DNA of 33,127 nucleotides from Candidatus Baldrarchaeota archaeon (GCA_016840485.1 JAEOSG010000013.1:1-33127); one strand, 5' to 3'; shown: positions 13,930-32,909, counted from the stretch's first letter. Translations and numbers: made by a program. Notes: a model not told the origin generated them from the sequence alone.

Positions 13930-13978
13930 AAGCATGGTTGATATGCTAATTTTCATTTTTAGTGTGTCAACCATGCTT
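13930..13978. repeat. Perfect 12-bp inverted repeat AAGCATGGTTGA...TCAACCATGCTT upstream of the subtilase start
   Basis: Arms 13930-13941 and 13967-13978, 25-nt spacer; the stem can extend 4 bp inward using G-U wobbles. Confidence 0.85.
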
Positions 13979-14000
13979 CACAACTTTTTGGGCGTATAGC

Positions 14001-17000
14001 ATGAAAAAGTGGGCATTAACATTGATATGTGCCATAATATTGGCGTCTTCTGCCCATTTATTCCAATTACAAATAAGTGACAACAACCAAACAAACTTAA
14101 TAGAAAAACCACAGCTTTTCGACCTCAAAATATCCGCAGAACTTAAGCAATTGCTCATATCGCCAAAAATCTCCAACCATGACACCATCCCAGCGGTACT
14201 GGTAACCAAAAGAAGCCTTAATGTGTATGAATACAATGAACTTAAAAACATGTGTAAAATCCTCTCTAATACTAGCAGAGTTTTCTTAATAAGGGCAACT
14301 AAGAGAGCCATTAAACAATTAGAATCGTTTCCATTCACACTCTACTTGGATTCAGGACTTAAAACTGCAGATTTCCACCTCATGGATGCATCTACCACAA
14401 CACGTACAAACTATGCATACTACATAAAAGATTCCTCCAACCGAAATATAACCGGCAAAGGTATCAAGATAGGGCTTATCGATACAGGAATAGATTGGAG
14501 ACATCCATTCTTCTACTATGACGATGGACAAAACTGCACAGTTATAAATGGAACTCACGTCGAGCTGCCAAATGGCTCACTCTACAACTATTATTTCATA
14601 GACGTTGTAAATGTTAGTAAAGCCAATCAAGGAGCACTGTCAGGGGATTTTGTAATATTAGCGCCTGACGGGGCATTCAACTTAGGTTATGAATACCTCT
14701 TCGTTGATATTGATGGCGATAATAAACCTGATGCAGATCCTGATGATCCTCAAAAAGTAGAGTACGGAATTCTAATAGATCTTGATGGAAATGGCGCACC
14801 ATCACTAGGTGATATTGTTAAGATGCTAAGAACACCTAAAATTATGAAAGTGCTTGATGAGAGATCATATCCCTATAACGTATATGTTAGTGGAGTAAAC
14901 ATGTCACAATTTAATCCTGTTGACTCAAGCGGGCAGGGACATGGTGCTCATGTTGCGGGTATAATCTTAGGTGGTCATACCTTAATGAAGTTGCATGGTG
15001 TTGCCCCAGACGCAGAGCTTTATGTTATTGCCAATGGTGGATACTTTACATACGAGAATGTTATATATGGTATGACATGGCTTGTAAAGCAAAATGTCAG
15101 CGTAATAAACATGAGTTTCGGTGGAACAATAGGATACCTAGACGGTTCAGACCCATGGGACATAGCAGTAGATGACCTATTTAAACAAGGTATTATATCG
15201 GTTGTATCCGCTGGAAATGGTGGCAGCAGCAATCAACACGTTGAAGTAGAAATACCAGCTTTAAGCAACATAAACCTAACATTTAATGTACACGATCTAA
15301 ACATATATTTAAACATCTTATGGAGAGAACCTTGGAGCAACTTAGAGTTCTCCTTGATTTCACCGTATGGAAACGAATACTATCTAGGGTCTTTTACATC
15401 TCCCTCATTAATAGCCGTACCAGGAGTAAATATTTCTTGCACAAGCTCTATGTCACCAAGATATACGTGTCAGTTTTTAGTAAGCATATACAATCTCACA
15501 CCCCTAGACGGTGCTATATGGACGTTAAAAATCCATAACCCAGCCAATAAAGTGCAGAAAGTGCACGGCTACCTCTTATGGTCATCCTACAATACGTGGA
15601 ACCCACCCTACACAAGTGAAGAGCATACAATTAGCTCCCCGGCTACAGCGGACTCAGCAATATCCGTTGGAGCACTAACAAAAAACGGATGGATAGCATC
15701 GTATAGTAGTAGGGGGCCAAGAATTGACGGCGTTAATAAACCGGAAATTTGTGCACCTGGAGGACATTATGAGATAGGCTACGATAATCCCTATATTCTC
15801 TCAGTCGATGGCACTGTGTCTTTAGCTGGACAACCTCCCTATACTCACGGTCACGGATATTATGCGTATATGTGTGGAACAAGTATGGCAGCTCCCCACA
15901 TTACAGGAGTTATAGCTCTACTTCTACAAGACGACCCGAATATGTCACCAACAGAGATTAGAGAAAACCTCTTTTTGTCTATTGGATACACTCATTTCTT
16001 ACCTCATAAAGTATATCCCATGCCTGACAACACTATCGGTTATGGCGGATTTGGGTACGTAGAGGTTCCCCAACTTCAAACCGACGGGCCCAACGGACCT
16101 GGTCCTGTTTATGTTACATCATGGTATCCAACAGGCTTTTCCATAGCTTATAATTCTTGGCTTTCTGACAACCGGGGAGTTACCATAGATGGTGATGACA
16201 AAGACTGGCTACTACACTATCCAGTAATAATTCACAATGATTCGATATGGTGGTATGAAGAATTCAGTTTTAAGCTATATTCATGGCATGAAAATGAATC
16301 ACATATATTTTTCTACATAAAGTTTGGAGTGAAAAATGCTCCAGCTGGATGCATGATTAATGTCTATATTGGCAGGGATAGACCTGGTTTCACGGGTCTA
16401 ACTGATTTTTATCTGCCAGAATGGAGAATCTCTTATAACACCTCTTCAGGTGTGTCCCAATTAGAGTTGTGGAATGGTCAGACGAATCAATACGGAGTAA
16501 TGCCAGCCTCAGGCTTTTTCGGAGTAAGTACGGGTAGATCTTCAATGGATGGTAACTGGCTCATAGAATTTTACGTTAAAAAGAACTATATTGAAATTCA
16601 GAACCTAAGCGAAGCAATAATATATTTTGCAGTGTACGACATAAGTTATTCAATGTTATTAAATAATAACGATCCTTACAATAGGCCTGGAGCTTCATTT
16701 TACGCATCCATAGATCAAACACCTGTAGTTGGGCACATAAATGTGACATATGCCAGCGATAATCACGGAATGTACATAAACGTCGAAGCAGACCTTAGTG
16801 ATTACTGGAGTGACGTGAGTAAAGTTATTTTTACTTGTCTATCGCCTAACGGCGTATCCAGAACAATACATATGAAATATAATTCCAACACTGGAATCTG
16901 GGAAATTAGTTATAGTATTACTCCAGAGAATCAAAGCATAGGTAAATTTGAGAACACATTAATAATTTACGACAAATTGGGAGCAAAAACGACGGTAAAC

Positions 17001-17654
17001 ATACTACCAACAATTATGTATACGCTAATTGACAATAGTAGTCCCTTGATACTGCTTGAAATGCCATTGTACGTTGCTGGCATAATTCAGATCAATTGGA
17101 CGGTAACCGAGACTAATCTCAAAAAATTAACTCTATACATTGATTCTAATGAATATGATGTGTTCGGAACTACCTCATTTACTTGGAATACAGCACAGTA
17201 TGATGACGGGAATCACATAATTAGGCTATATGCTCAAGATGCTGGTGGACTAGAGAGCGAAATTACAAAAAATGTCATTATTGACAATACGCCTCCAATA
17301 ATTGTTGTAACTTCCCTAATTAACAACACAAAGATAAATAAAGACTCAATAGAAGTTACTTGGCAAGCCGCTGACAATATAAAACTTGATCACTTTGATA
17401 TATACTTAGATGGGGCATTAATATCAGGAAATGTTTCAAAAAGCCAAAGGTCTATTACAATAACAGGATTGTCTCAGGGAGAACATGTAATAACCATAAG
17501 AGCGTACGATGAAGTCGGAAACTACGCGGAAACAAAACTTATATTCACATATAGAACACTAGCGATTCACCCAATATACATAGCGGTAGCAATCGTAGCA
17601 ATAGGATGCACCGCTGCAATCTTAATTAAAGTAAGGAAGAAAAAATTAACATAA
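14001..17654 (+). CDS. Secreted, membrane-anchored S8 subtilisin-like serine protease with C-terminal DOMON-like/Ig-like domains
   Basis: Asp motif IGLIDTGIDW, His motif GQGHGAHVAGI, Ser motif CGTSMAAPHITGV; signal peptide MKKWALTLICAIILASSAHL; C-terminal TM segment IYIAVAIVAIGCTAAILI plus KVRKKK. The tracked GTG at 13962 extends the protein, but ATG at 14001 places the signal peptide at the N-terminus. Confidence 0.92.
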   Translation: MKKWALTLICAIILASSAHLFQLQISDNNQTNLIEKPQLFDLKISAELKQLLISPKISNHDTIPAVLVTKRSLNVYEYNELKNMCKILSNTSRVFLIRATKRAIKQLESFPFTLYLDSGLKTADFHLMDASTTTRTNYAYYIKDSSNRNITGKGIKIGLIDTGIDWRHPFFYYDDGQNCTVINGTHVELPNGSLYNYYFIDVVNVSKANQGALSGDFVILAPDGAFNLGYEYLFVDIDGDNKPDADPDDPQKVEYGILIDLDGNGAPSLGDIVKMLRTPKIMKVLDERSYPYNVYVSGVNMSQFNPVDSSGQGHGAHVAGIILGGHTLMKLHGVAPDAELYVIANGGYFTYENVIYGMTWLVKQNVSVINMSFGGTIGYLDGSDPWDIAVDDLFKQGIISVVSAGNGGSSNQHVEVEIPALSNINLTFNVHDLNIYLNILWREPWSNLEFSLISPYGNEYYLGSFTSPSLIAVPGVNISCTSSMSPRYTCQFLVSIYNLTPLDGAIWTLKIHNPANKVQKVHGYLLWSSYNTWNPPYTSEEHTISSPATADSAISVGALTKNGWIASYSSRGPRIDGVNKPEICAPGGHYEIGYDNPYILSVDGTVSLAGQPPYTHGHGYYAYMCGTSMAAPHITGVIALLLQDDPNMSPTEIRENLFLSIGYTHFLPHKVYPMPDNTIGYGGFGYVEVPQLQTDGPNGPGPVYVTSWYPTGFSIAYNSWLSDNRGVTIDGDDKDWLLHYPVIIHNDSIWWYEEFSFKLYSWHENESHIFFYIKFGVKNAPAGCMINVYIGRDRPGFTGLTDFYLPEWRISYNTSSGVSQLELWNGQTNQYGVMPASGFFGVSTGRSSMDGNWLIEFYVKKNYIEIQNLSEAIIYFAVYDISYSMLLNNNDPYNRPGASFYASIDQTPVVGHINVTYASDNHGMYINVEADLSDYWSDVSKVIFTCLSPNGVSRTIHMKYNSNTGIWEISYSITPENQSIGKFENTLIIYDKLGAKTTVNILPTIMYTLIDNSSPLILLEMPLYVAGIIQINWTVTETNLKKLTLYIDSNEYDVFGTTSFTWNTAQYDDGNHIIRLYAQDAGGLESEITKNVIIDNTPPIIVVTSLINNTKINKDSIEVTWQAADNIKLDHFDIYLDGALISGNVSKSQRSITITGLSQGEHVITIRAYDEVGNYAETKLIFTYRTLAIHPIYIAVAIVAIGCTAAILIKVRKKKLT

Positions 17655-29750: not shown

Positions 29751-30137
29751 CTATGCTAATATATTAAGAATCTTCCGCAAATTCATCATTATTAAACCAA
29801 GTTGTGCTCTGGCATCTGAACCAGCGAGGGCTATAAGAGACAGGGTAGGCGACGAAGCAATTATAACATAGCCTTCATCACCAACTAAATGGACTTCTTT
29901 AATCATACCCTTACCTAATTCCTTACTTAGACTATCTAGTTCTTGAACAATCTTTGCGAGTTTCATTAATGTGGTTTCGCTTGGACTTCTAGAGATAGAT
30001 TCGGAGGAAATAATATTTCCATCTCTTGAAATGGCAATTATACCTTCAATAGCGGTTATTTCATCCATTAATTTTAAGAGCATTTTTCTGATTCTTTCTA
30101 CATCATGCATTCTCTTCACTTCCCGTAAATAAGCCAT
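29751..30137 (-). CDS. Roadblock/LC7 domain protein (1)
   Basis: 128 aa; ITAIEGIIAISRDGNIISSE...IVQELDSLSKELGKGMIKEVHLVGDEGYVIIASSPTLSLIALAGSDARAQLGLIMMNLRK matches the roadblock/LC7 pattern. Confidence 0.85.
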   Translation of the reverse strand: MAYLREVKRMHDVERIRKMLLKLMDEITAIEGIIAISRDGNIISSESISRSPSETTLMKLAKIVQELDSLSKELGKGMIKEVHLVGDEGYVIIASSPTLSLIALAGSDARAQLGLIMMNLRKILNILA

Positions 30138-30291
30138 ATAGTTTATTAGCGGCTAGTTATATTTAAATTAACCCCTTAGTCACACTTCTTTTAAACATCG
30201 GAATTTATTAAAAAATTTTAATTCTTACACTAAGGTTTAAAAGAAAGTTAATATGATATTTTTGTGAGCATAAACGATTAAGGGAAGTAAT

Positions 30292-30576
30292 ATGATTAGC
30301 CAGAAATGGATAAAAGACACTATAGAAAGACTATCTAGCCACGAAGGTGTCAAAGGAGTTGTAATTACGAGCGCTGAAGGAATACCATTAAGTTCCACGT
30401 TAAGTTCTGATGAAACAGAAAAAATAGCAGCATTTGTTACATCAATTGTTGATAAAGCAAAGAAAATAATTAATGAACTGGGAACGGGTAAGCTTAACTT
30501 TCTAACAGTTGATGCATCCAAAAAAGAACTACTCATAGCGCCCGAGAAAGATTACATTTTAGTAGTTTTACGATAA
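30292..30576 (+). CDS. Roadblock/LC7 domain protein (2), short
   Basis: 94 aa; HEGVKGVVITSAEGIPLSSTLSSDETEKIAAFVTSIVDKAKKIINELGTGKLNFLTVDASKKELLIAPEKDYILVVL. Confidence 0.85.
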   Translation: MISQKWIKDTIERLSSHEGVKGVVITSAEGIPLSSTLSSDETEKIAAFVTSIVDKAKKIINELGTGKLNFLTVDASKKELLIAPEKDYILVVLR

Positions 30577-30607
30577 TGTTAAATTGTTTATTATGAAGGT
30601 GTAAATT

Positions 30608-31072
30608 ATGATAGATGTTAAATTATTTGAGAAAATCCTCAGCGACCTCATTAAGAGTGAAAGTGGAATCAGGAAAGTCATTCTTGTGGATAGAACAGGA
30701 CTTACAATTGCGCATGCATCAAAATTTTCCTATTACCCGGTGGATATAGATGGAATAGGAGCCATTGCAAGTGCTGTCTTTGTTGCAAGTGAAGAACAAG
30801 GAAAAAATCTGGACATAGGAGAGTTAATGTTAGTAACCTCGGAATTTGAACAAGGAAAAATCTTTGCTGCAAGCTGCGGAAAAGGAGTATTATGCGTAAT
30901 AACAGATTCTGATGTTAACATAGGAATGGTGCGACTATTAATGAAAAGGGCAGCCACAGAACTGGAAAAAGTTCTAGACGAATTTCTTTCCGAGCAACCC
31001 ACACTACCAGCAACAGAAGAAAAGACGCGTGAGAAGCTAAAGTCAGCATTAGACAAATTGGAAGAATTTTAA
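30608..31072 (+). CDS. Roadblock/LC7-like protein (3) with C-terminal helical extension
   Basis: 154 aa; SGIRKVILVDRTGLTIAHAS...IDGIGAIASAVFVASEEQGKNLDIGELMLVTSEFEQGKIFAASCGKGVLCVITD, then the charged tail EQPTLPATEEKTREKLKSALDKLEEF. Confidence 0.78.
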   Translation: MIDVKLFEKILSDLIKSESGIRKVILVDRTGLTIAHASKFSYYPVDIDGIGAIASAVFVASEEQGKNLDIGELMLVTSEFEQGKIFAASCGKGVLCVITDSDVNIGMVRLLMKRAATELEKVLDEFLSEQPTLPATEEKTREKLKSALDKLEEF

Positions 31073-31096
31073 CACTTTTTTGGGAGCGTTAGAGCA

Positions 31097-31678
31097 TTGA
31101 AAAAGGACAAAGATGGAAGAGTACATTTCAAAATCGTATTCTGGGGGCCTTCCTTATCGGGAAAAACCACTTCACTTAGATGGATATATAGTAATGTATC
31201 AGGGTTATCGAAAGGTGGATTTACCTCTATTGAGGACCCTACTGGGAGAACGTTATACTTTGACTATACACCGTTATCGGCTAGCGGTGATGTAATATTT
31301 GATGTTTACACAGTAGCGGGTCAAAAAAGACACAAGCATCAACGAAAAATAATTTTACAAGGGGTAGATGGTATAATTTTTGTAGCTGACTCAGATCCTT
31401 CACAGCTTGATGCAAATGGGGAAAGTATGGAAGAATTGAAGGAATTATTAAAAGATCGTCTCGGAACAGAGGTTCCACTAGTGATAATGATTAACAAAAG
31501 GGATCTGCCAAATGCTGCAGATAAAGAGGAAATTTTAGAGAAACTTAATATTGCAACCATGGATGTACCTATATATGAAACAATTGCAACAAAAGGAATA
31601 GGTATAAAAAGAGCTTTCCAAGCAATTGCTAGGGAAGTTTTATTAAGAAAACTCTACAATTTAAAGACCATGACATAA
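31097..31678 (+). CDS. MglA-like small Ras-superfamily GTPase
   Basis: 193 aa from TTG; G1 GPSLSGKTT, MglA-type G3 YTVAGQ (no DxxG aspartate), KIILQGVDGIIFVADSDPSQLDANGESMEELKELL, G4 NKRD, G5-like ETIATKGIGIKRAFQAIAREVL. Confidence 0.88.
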   Translation: MKKDKDGRVHFKIVFWGPSLSGKTTSLRWIYSNVSGLSKGGFTSIEDPTGRTLYFDYTPLSASGDVIFDVYTVAGQKRHKHQRKIILQGVDGIIFVADSDPSQLDANGESMEELKELLKDRLGTEVPLVIMINKRDLPNAADKEEILEKLNIATMDVPIYETIATKGIGIKRAFQAIAREVLLRKLYNLKTMT

Positions 31679-31742
31679 AATACACAACTTATGTAATTAT
31701 TAAATTAGTGGTCTAAAATAAGCTGCAAACAAGGTGACAACC

Positions 31743-32114
31743 ATGTCCGAGTCGAGTAGTGAAACCTTAGAAGACGTACTTAAGGATCTTGAAGCTACGG
31801 TACCCGATATAGAGGCTGCTGCAATCGTTAGCATAGAAGGACTGCCAATTGCCTCAGCGTTGCCCACCGACGTAGATGAAACCCGAGTAGCTGCTATGAC
31901 AGCAGCTATGTTATCTCTAGGAGAAAGAGCTGCATCAGAGCTAGGAAAAGGAGAGCTAGAACAAATATTCGTTAAAGGTAAAGAGGGATATATAGTTACA
32001 ATGAGCGCTGGACCAAGTGCTGTGTTAACTGTGACAGCAAGAAAACAAGCAAAATTGGGCTTGATTTTTCACTACATGAAACAAGCAGCAGAAAAAATAT
32101 CAAAAATGATTTAA
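31743..32114 (+). CDS. Roadblock/LC7 domain protein (4)
   Basis: DIEAAAIVSIEGLPIASALPTDVDETRVAAMTAAMLSLGERAASELGKGELEQIFVKGKEGYIVTMSAGPSAVLTVTARKQAKLGLIFHYMKQAAEKI. ATG at 31743 follows AGGTGACAACC; the ORF track starts at the upstream 31734 codon. Confidence 0.9.
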   Translation: MSESSSETLEDVLKDLEATVPDIEAAAIVSIEGLPIASALPTDVDETRVAAMTAAMLSLGERAASELGKGELEQIFVKGKEGYIVTMSAGPSAVLTVTARKQAKLGLIFHYMKQAAEKISKMI

Positions 32115-32144: not shown

Positions 32145-32909
32145 ATGCGTATACTTGCACCAATATACAAACTTTACGAGTGGTTATTGTGGAAGCAAAT
32201 AAAACAAGGAGAAAAACCAAAACATATCGGCGTAATCCTAGACGGAAATAGACGTTATGCAAGACAACTAGGATTAGAAACATGGAATGGACATAAAATA
32301 GGTGCTGAAAAAGTAAAAGATTTCTTAGAATGGTGCTGGGAAGCAGGAATAAAGGTTGTAACCCTCTATGTTTTCAGCACAGAAAACTTCAATCGCAATA
32401 AAAGAGAAGTAGAAGAAATAATGAGACTGGCCAAACAAAAATTTGAAGAAGTTCTTACAGATCCTCGAATTCATAAACATCAAGTTAGAATAAAAGCCAT
32501 AGGAAGGCTGCACCTGCTACCCAAAGATTTACGTGATATCATAAGGAAAGCAGAAGAGGAAACTAAATCGTATAACAAATATTTCTTAAATGTTGCAATA
32601 GGATATGGTGGACGTGCCGAAATAGTTGATGCGTTCAGAAAAATTGCAAAAATGGTAGCAGAAGGGAAACTCAACCCTGAATTAATAGATGAAAATCTTG
32701 TCGAAAAACATTTATACACTGCAGGTTTACCGGATCCGGATCTTATTATCCGTACATCTGGTGAAGAAAGGCTCTCAGGTTTTCTTCTTTGGCAGTCAGC
32801 GTATTCTGAATTCTATTTCCTAGATGTTTATTGGCCTGCAATTAGAAAAATAGATTTATGGCGTGCTATAAGAACCTATCAGCAACGACAACGACGATTT
32901 GGACGATGA
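32145..32909 (+). CDS. uppS: cis-prenyltransferase (undecaprenyl/polyprenyl diphosphate synthase family)
   Basis: 254 aa; HIGVILDGNRRYARQLGLETWNGHKIGAEKVKDFLEWCWEAGIKVVTLYVFSTENFNR, GYGGRAEIVDA, PDPDLIIRTSGEERLSGFLLWQSAYSEFYF. Confidence 0.97.
   Translation: MRILAPIYKLYEWLLWKQIKQGEKPKHIGVILDGNRRYARQLGLETWNGHKIGAEKVKDFLEWCWEAGIKVVTLYVFSTENFNRNKREVEEIMRLAKQKFEEVLTDPRIHKHQVRIKAIGRLHLLPKDLRDIIRKAEEETKSYNKYFLNVAIGYGGRAEIVDAFRKIAKMVAEGKLNPELIDENLVEKHLYTAGLPDPDLIIRTSGEERLSGFLLWQSAYSEFYFLDVYWPAIRKIDLWRAIRTYQQRQRRFGR

Follow-up and report, generated by a model that had tools for sequence, protein, structure and literature searches.

A conserved Asgard gene array combining an MglA-like small GTPase with four roadblock families

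Asgard archaea, the prokaryotes most closely related to complex cells, encode small GTPases by the dozen along with many roadblock proteins. In the Ragulator, LAMTOR2/3 and LAMTOR4/5 heterodimers serve the Rag GTPases. In Myxococcus xanthus, the C-terminal tail helix of one MglB chain drives nucleotide exchange, and Asn37 and Arg98 of the second chain serve GAP activity (PMC11016934); MglB and MglC set a precedent for a single GTPase served by multiple roadblock paralogs (PMC12719032). Group 1 of the MglA family is characterized by an Arg beside the G2 Thr and a TVPGQ G3 motif, in which Thr replaces the Asp of Ras, and the actinobacterial conservons (Cvn/Mfp) are conserved operons in which a roadblock protein accompanies a GTPase of the MglA family (PMC4316618). 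Among Asgard roadblocks, which Tran et al. (2024) studied one by one, Odin-RBLC7 (PDB 7f8f) was proposed as a helix-binding platform, and GTPase genes of strain MK-D1 were found generally outside operons with roadblock genes, making it difficult to match the two from gene order (PMC10933270).

Here, we analysed a 33,127-nt stretch of DNA from a Candidatus Baldrarchaeota archaeon (GCA_016840485.1; hereafter, the window), in which an initial annotation had described a small GTPase amid four roadblock genes. All five open reading frames were present, and all four roadblocks exceeded the Pfam Robl_LC7 cut-off of 23 bits:

29751..30137, minus strand: RB1, divergent roadblock/LC7 protein, 128 aa (Robl_LC7 29.2 bits)
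30138..30291, no strand: intergenic region between the divergent RB1 and RB2, 154 nt
30292..30576, plus strand: RB2, short roadblock of the RBLC7 type, 94 aa (Robl_LC7 67.7 bits, LAMTOR5 31.2 bits)
30608..31072, plus strand: RB3, MglB-like roadblock with a charged tail, 154 aa (Robl_LC7 45.5 bits)
31097..31678, plus strand: MglA-type small GTPase, 193 aa, TTG start, in frame with RB3
31743..32114, plus strand: RB4, canonical roadblock with both terminal helices, 123 aa, ATG at 31743 (Robl_LC7 74.8 bits)
32145..32909, plus strand: UppS-type cis-prenyltransferase, 30 nt past RB4 (Pfam Prenyltransf E 3e-84)

RB2, RB3, GTPase, RB4 and UppS run in the same direction, with gaps of 31, 24, 64 and 30 nt in this order. 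The GTPase lies in tight array with three of the roadblocks, but the picture of a GTPase surrounded by roadblocks needs one correction: the array is not one-way, as RB1 points away from the remaining genes across 154 nt that likely form a shared promoter region. The source genome, a bin of 333 contigs with an estimated contamination of 8%, yielded 15 roadblock and 14 related GTPase matches in total.

To judge conservation, 17-kb regions of relatives were annotated with profiles of the five families and grouped into tool-defined families (f1–f29), to which lineage names are given only where a named contig belongs. The closest named contigs were those of Candidatus Odinarchaeota AUK032 (98% identity in the GTPase), Baldrarchaeota MAG_95 (91%) and Baldrarchaeum yapensis (68%), the last of which has the gene order of the window; they place the window in a Baldrarchaeia-type Asgard. 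A divergent RB1 followed by RB2-RB3-GTPase-RB4 in order recurred in f1, f2, f4, f11, f13 (Jordarchaeia, Freyarchaeota), f14 (Borrarchaeum) and f28 (a Sigynarchaeota bin, whose array in genome G180 is nearly identical to those of f13 and may stem from a mis-binned genome). All five genes were also present in f12, with RB4 inverted, and f7, f8 and f17 (a Njordarchaeum bin) carried the set without RB1 alongside. Recurrence of these five orthologs in unchanged order across many Asgard families shows that the array is not a chance assembly, and we consider it a real, conserved module with very high confidence. Lack of conservation in related genomes had been named beforehand as a possible refutation; the array proved conserved across Asgards.

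Occurrence and linkage were counted in draft genomes of at least 88% completeness (n = 124), considering only the genomes listed for each search. RB1 (profile A1) was found in 89 of 124 Asgard genomes, RB2 in 115 of 124 with weaker matches included, and RB4 in 121 of 124 at a threshold that may admit close paralogs, each among the matches listed. The profiles were specific, e.g. RB3 orthologs scored 200–292 bits vs. ~50 bits for the next family. At E < 1e-18, RB3 was present in 205 of 232 Asgard genomes, including 46 of the 46 best. Across 397 archaeal genomes of at least 95% completeness, most Asgard copies scored well above 170 bits, whereas matches outside the Asgards peaked at 83 bits and were ordinary roadblocks of ~120 aa devoid of the tail. 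No RB3 ortholog was found among the ~350 non-Asgard genomes and, given this separation in score, the family is Asgard-specific within the sample.

The initial annotation had called the four roadblocks unlike one another, and indeed the best cross-match between any two of them reached only E 4e-7. In a tree of 87 roadblock sequences, RB1 and RB3 each formed one clade (support 100/99); RB2 and RB4 were coherent, with some paralogs from the same genomes attached on long branches, and the few alignment columns give no firm order of the deeper branches. The four roadblocks represent ancient, separate families whose orthologs keep a common order across many Asgard families.

As judged from its motifs and best matches, the GTPase is MglA-like. 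It carries GPSLSGKTT, GRT, YTVAGQ and NKRD (the first and the last two as initially annotated), and its best PDB match was MglA (3t12, E 3.3e-40); MglA chains spanned 3e-40 to 4e-38, followed by Arf at 1e-11. Foldseek, queried with the model of a GTPase ortholog, likewise ranked the MglA structures 6izw, 3t1q and 3t12 first. An Arg preceding the G2 Thr (xRT), corresponding to an intrinsic Arg finger, was present in 31 of 33 GTPase orthologs and missing in two (GFT in Borrarchaeum, and GLT). The G3 motif read TVAGQ in 28, TTAGQ in four and TTAGR in one of these orthologs (T[VT]AGQ in 32 of 33), and NK[RQ]D was invariant (33 of 33). The stretch between G1 and G2 aligned gap-free to Thermus MglA, i.e. 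the insertion typical of bacterial MglA is present. Compared with MglA Group 1, all features fit except for an Ala where the G3 Pro is expected, with Thr and Gln in place. A further feature of the MglA family, a homolog of MglB encoded within four genes, is found in the window, where RB3 lies directly upstream of the GTPase. From these features, we infer an active, slowly hydrolysing switch that would need its own Arg and Gln to be oriented.

An ordinary Ras/Rab or Arf identity is rejected on the motifs and best matches. For Arf, the Pfam model did score 59.5 bits, yet MglA gave the best PDB and fold matches, and the protein lacks the G3 Asp of the DxxGQ motif typical of Arf. Neither is the protein of the Rag/Gtr type, whose GTPases carry a C-terminal roadblock domain and pair up as heterodimers, as it consists of a single 193-aa domain and scored only 24.8 bits with Gtr1_RagA. 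Fusions of GTPase and roadblock domains were considered as direct evidence of pairing, but the longer GTPase paralogs (276–303 aa) bear N-terminal extensions rather than roadblock domains. Genomes of f4 (L092:8016-8846, L093, L115, L116) encode a second MglA-like GTPase, ~48–52% identical, with an N-terminal extension of ~90–110 aa. A search for plasmid-borne relatives returned one distant match, from Deinococcus.

Among the four roadblocks, RB3 is the MglB-like one. Its best structural relative by sequence was Thermus MglB (PDB 3t1r), matched over residues 11–151 (E 1e-8), and it also hit the NCBIfam model of Thermus MglB, NF052242 (E 4e-11); with 43 bits against a cut-off of 200, however, it is not an MglB equivalog, and it also scored 31.5 bits with Pfam MAPKK1_Int, a LAMTOR3-like feature. 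At its C-terminus, a variable linker leads into a helix motif, LxxALxxL[ED], retained in all 33 non-Loki loci examined; the tail of Loki RB3 carries another motif, LDLSDLD. At sequence level, linker and helix reproduce the layout of the exchange-active tail of MglB, with the helix predicted at low confidence in the AlphaFold2 model. The position of M. xanthus MglB Asn37 is occupied by Thr in all 37 RB3 rows parsed, and that of Arg98 by Lys or Arg in most. Together, the MglB match, the tail and these two positions lead to the hypothesis that RB3 is an MglB-like regulator, with the tasks of an MglB dimer shared among several genes. RB3 probably regulates the adjoining GTPase. The initial annotation had suggested GAP, GEF-like or scaffold roles for distinct roadblock pairs; similarity to MglB would extend a GAP or GEF role to RB3 only, and not to the other roadblocks.

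RB2 (94 aa, without a C-terminal helix) fits the dynein-roadblock/LAMTOR5-like RBLC7 type, matching 7f8f over its full length (residues 1–94, E 1e-24) and dynein light-chain roadblock chains at E ~1e-16. The RB2 encoded in the Odinarchaeum array is identical in sequence to Odin-RBLC7 (7f8f). RB1, the most sequence-variable of the four, is represented in MK-D1 by PDB 9jq8 ("Roadblock2 homodimer"; 113 of 113 residues identical). Hence, structures exist for two members of the module, each determined on its own. The best PDB match of RB4 was 7f8m (E 8e-26); MK-D1 RB4 and 9jue (Roadblock3) matched only at E 7e-18 and are not the same protein.

Where the array breaks up, it tends to do so into two linkage units, RB3-GTPase-RB4 and RB1-RB2. 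Among the genomes listed for each pair, RB1 and RB2 lay within 3 kb of each other in 76 of 87 genomes (11 of 13 families), and RB3 and the GTPase in 37 of 41 (10 of 11 families); the GTPase adjoined RB4 in 42 of 61 genomes and RB2 in 46 of 55. The pairing of RB1 and RB2 extends to the Loki lineages, i.e. f18, which holds MK-D1 (5 of 5 genomes listed), and f3 (36 of 40 genomes listed), assigned to Loki from its kinship in gene content to f18. In these, RB3 and RB4 are sited elsewhere, and a GTPase ortholog was not found at E < 1e-50; as all four roadblocks are kept, they may serve other GTPases. MK-D1 thus represents a lineage whose array has broken up. Other partial arrangements include f21, retaining RB3-GTPase-RB4 only, and f5 and f16, with RB2-GTPase kept and RB1 absent at the threshold used. 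In Odinarchaeum (L160, L161), RB1|RB2-RB3-RB4 remain together and the GTPase is gone from the RB3/RB4 interval. A genome of f21, a family without RB1 and without a good RB2, also encodes two tandem short roadblocks downstream of a Rab-like GTPase (L182:2228-4431).

Such linkage would also be expected if RB1-RB2 and RB3-RB4 heterodimers formed one platform that recruits the GTPase, in the manner of the Ragulator, rather than acting as GAP or GEF. The number of roadblocks, the short LAMTOR4/5 type of RB2 (LAMTOR5 31 bits), the MAPKK1_Int score of RB3 (31.5 bits), and the retention of four roadblocks as a set in Odinarchaeum, with the GTPase not adjacent, fit this explanation. However, no LAMTOR1-like wrapping protein was seen in the conserved neighborhood; the GTPase, although small, is MglA-type and lacks the C-terminal roadblock domain of Rag; RB1 and RB2 crystallized as homodimers; and AlphaFold models showed no confident pairing. 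By the features compared, the module is not a Ragulator, and we regard a Ragulator-like mode of action as doubtful.

Structural modelling of the assembly took advantage of shared reading frames: RB3, GTPase and RB4 (locus L057), as well as RB2 and RB1 (L167), were each read as one chain, stops being read as residues. Both AlphaFold2 models contained well-formed domains in no confident arrangement (RB3-GTPase-RB4, pLDDT 83, pTM 0.49; RB2-RB1, pLDDT 68, pTM 0.47). The underlying alignments were shallow (44 and 19 rows) and mostly unpaired, and the inputs comprised no extra copies to form homodimers; two further MAFFT alignments (A4, A5) were discarded, because single roadblock rows had been placed on the wrong roadblock domain. 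The low pTM values support neither a GTPase-roadblock nor an RB1-RB2 interface and, given the shallow alignments, weigh little either way. The distinct roadblock heterodimers proposed in the initial annotation thus found no backing in the models, and the crystals of MK-D1 RB1 (9jq8) and Odinarchaeum RB2 (7f8f) contain homodimers.

These crystals raise the alternative that different homodimers stack and jointly tune one GTPase, as in M. xanthus, where MglB works jointly with a paralog, MglC, at 4:2 with RomR (PMC12719032). Proteins expressed singly may homodimerize by default, though, and stacking leaves the RB1-RB2 and RB3-GTPase-RB4 linkage unexplained; we consider this arrangement unlikely. 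For hetero-assembly of some of the roadblocks, in whichever combination, the odds appear even.

Our preferred reading, to which we assign a probability of roughly 0.6, is an Asgard GTPase-roadblock module in which four specialized roadblock subunits divide MglB-like tasks around one MglA-type GTPase. In such a module, the roadblock core of RB3, by itself or paired with RB4, would bring the Arg and Gln of the GTPase into position for hydrolysis. Nucleotide exchange would be promoted, as in MglB, by the C-terminal helix of RB3 on a flexible linker. RB2, lacking a C-terminal helix, would offer an open groove to a partner helix, and RB1-RB2 would link the GTPase switch with an effector or scaffold. 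In MglB, asymmetry arises within a homodimer of identical chains; in this module, it would be split among several genes. Speaking against this reading are the low-pTM models, the two homodimeric crystals, the loss of the Arg in two GTPase orthologs, and the Loki lineages, with four roadblocks but no GTPase ortholog at E < 1e-50 and another RB3 tail motif.

By analogy, the module would work most like MglA/MglB with paralog expansion. MglA is the nearest GTPase by both sequence and fold, and the intrinsic Arg, a Thr-type G3 and the Gln occur in both systems, as does an MglB-matching roadblock with a linker and, here, a predicted C-terminal helix. They differ in that the module is archaeal, carries TVAGQ instead of TVPGQ, and comprises four roadblock families, two of them short or strongly divergent, rather than one or two. 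Conservons, in contrast, combine one roadblock with a histidine kinase and group 2 GTPase motifs, compared with four roadblocks and no kinase here. While the components are of known kinds, the occurrence of the five genes as a set throughout the phylum and their grouping into two linkage units are new: open-licence PMC papers yielded no description of the array or of Asgard roadblock gene clusters of this kind, in agreement with the initial suggestion of an undescribed combination. The array shows probable matches of switch and regulators, held in the literature to be unreadable from Asgard genomes, and, as one GTPase is matched with four roadblock families throughout the phylum, makes a defined five-protein reconstitution possible. 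A possible division of MglB-dimer roles among genes also bears on the origin of Ragulator-type multi-roadblock regulators.

Given its location in a housekeeping region (TFB, Gar1, SRP19, eS8, UppS), the array might have been kept together by slow rearrangement and common descent, without any joint work of its products. The order of the neighboring housekeeping genes is partly conserved as well. Yet the five-gene core outlasts the change of these neighbors in some families, sub-groups stay paired after relocation (RB1-RB2 in Loki, RB3-GTPase-RB4 in f21), and a GTPase paralog in the source genome again lies beside a short roadblock (L103), so that descent alone seems a highly improbable explanation. 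The UppS/DHDDS-type cis-prenyltransferase follows RB4 in many families, even where other neighbors have changed; it is a recurrent neighbor and probably not a working part of the module.

The initial annotation had further envisaged a polarity or trafficking switch, a role for which the analysis found no support; the recurrent neighbors are SMC-ScpA-ScpB, the cis-prenyltransferase and information-processing genes. In f4, f11, f13 and f28, SMC, ScpA and ScpB follow RB1 in the same direction (Pfam-confirmed in L065). In f23 and f7, RB1 is parted from the other roadblocks, yet adjoins SMC or ScpB. Among the genomes listed, ScpA lay no more than 6.5 kb from RB1 in 42 of 82, representing 8 of 11 families. 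Loki genomes, including MK-D1 (L168) and G110 (L169), carry a divergent ScpA homolog next to the RB1-RB2 pair, which fell under the Pfam cut-offs and matched an Asgard ScpA profile at E 1e-22 to 1e-26. The ScpA alignment behind the 6.5-kb count contained Loki roadblock-adjacent copies, which inflates the Loki E-values in that count. In the window's own genus, the SMC operon is sited elsewhere (L198). SMC-ScpA-ScpB or a divergent ScpA kleisin was seen beside RB1 at L065:10332-15999, L072, L074-L079, L081, L159, L162, L165, L179, L183 and L186, and beside the Loki RB1-RB2 pair at L167-L169, L172 and L184. The proximity of RB1 to SMC-ScpA-ScpB may reflect shared ancestral gene order or a functional tie, and constitutes the main unexplained lead. 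That RB1-RB2 touches SMC-ScpA-ScpB, with the GTPase and RB3-RB4 controlling when or where condensin acts in Asgards, is a long shot; in open-licence PMC papers, we found no description of SMC control by a small GTPase and roadblocks, or of a roadblock-SMC link.

Several additional features were noted. In Loki genomes and one f28 genome, a very large protein is encoded convergently with RB1 (L168:1-3834, L171:4886-9001, L172:1-4035, L173:5146-9000, L184:4999-9000, L185:1-3963, L178:1-3648). Where it was read (L168, L172, L178), the protein terminates in a membrane segment and a charged tail; no Pfam family was assigned except for a weak CARDB match. In the source genome, a GTPase paralog, 50% identical, is convergent with a 131-aa short roadblock on two near-duplicate contigs (C187/C18; L103:3488-4471, L104:490-1473), suggesting that the bin contains redundant strains. 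The source genome also has a second small array, in which another GTPase is followed by two RB4-like roadblock genes (C188; L105:5392-7320). Finally, positions 13962-17654 of the window encode a 1230-aa protein that, from inspection of its translation by eye, appears to be a subtilisin-like secreted protease bearing a membrane segment at its C-terminus.
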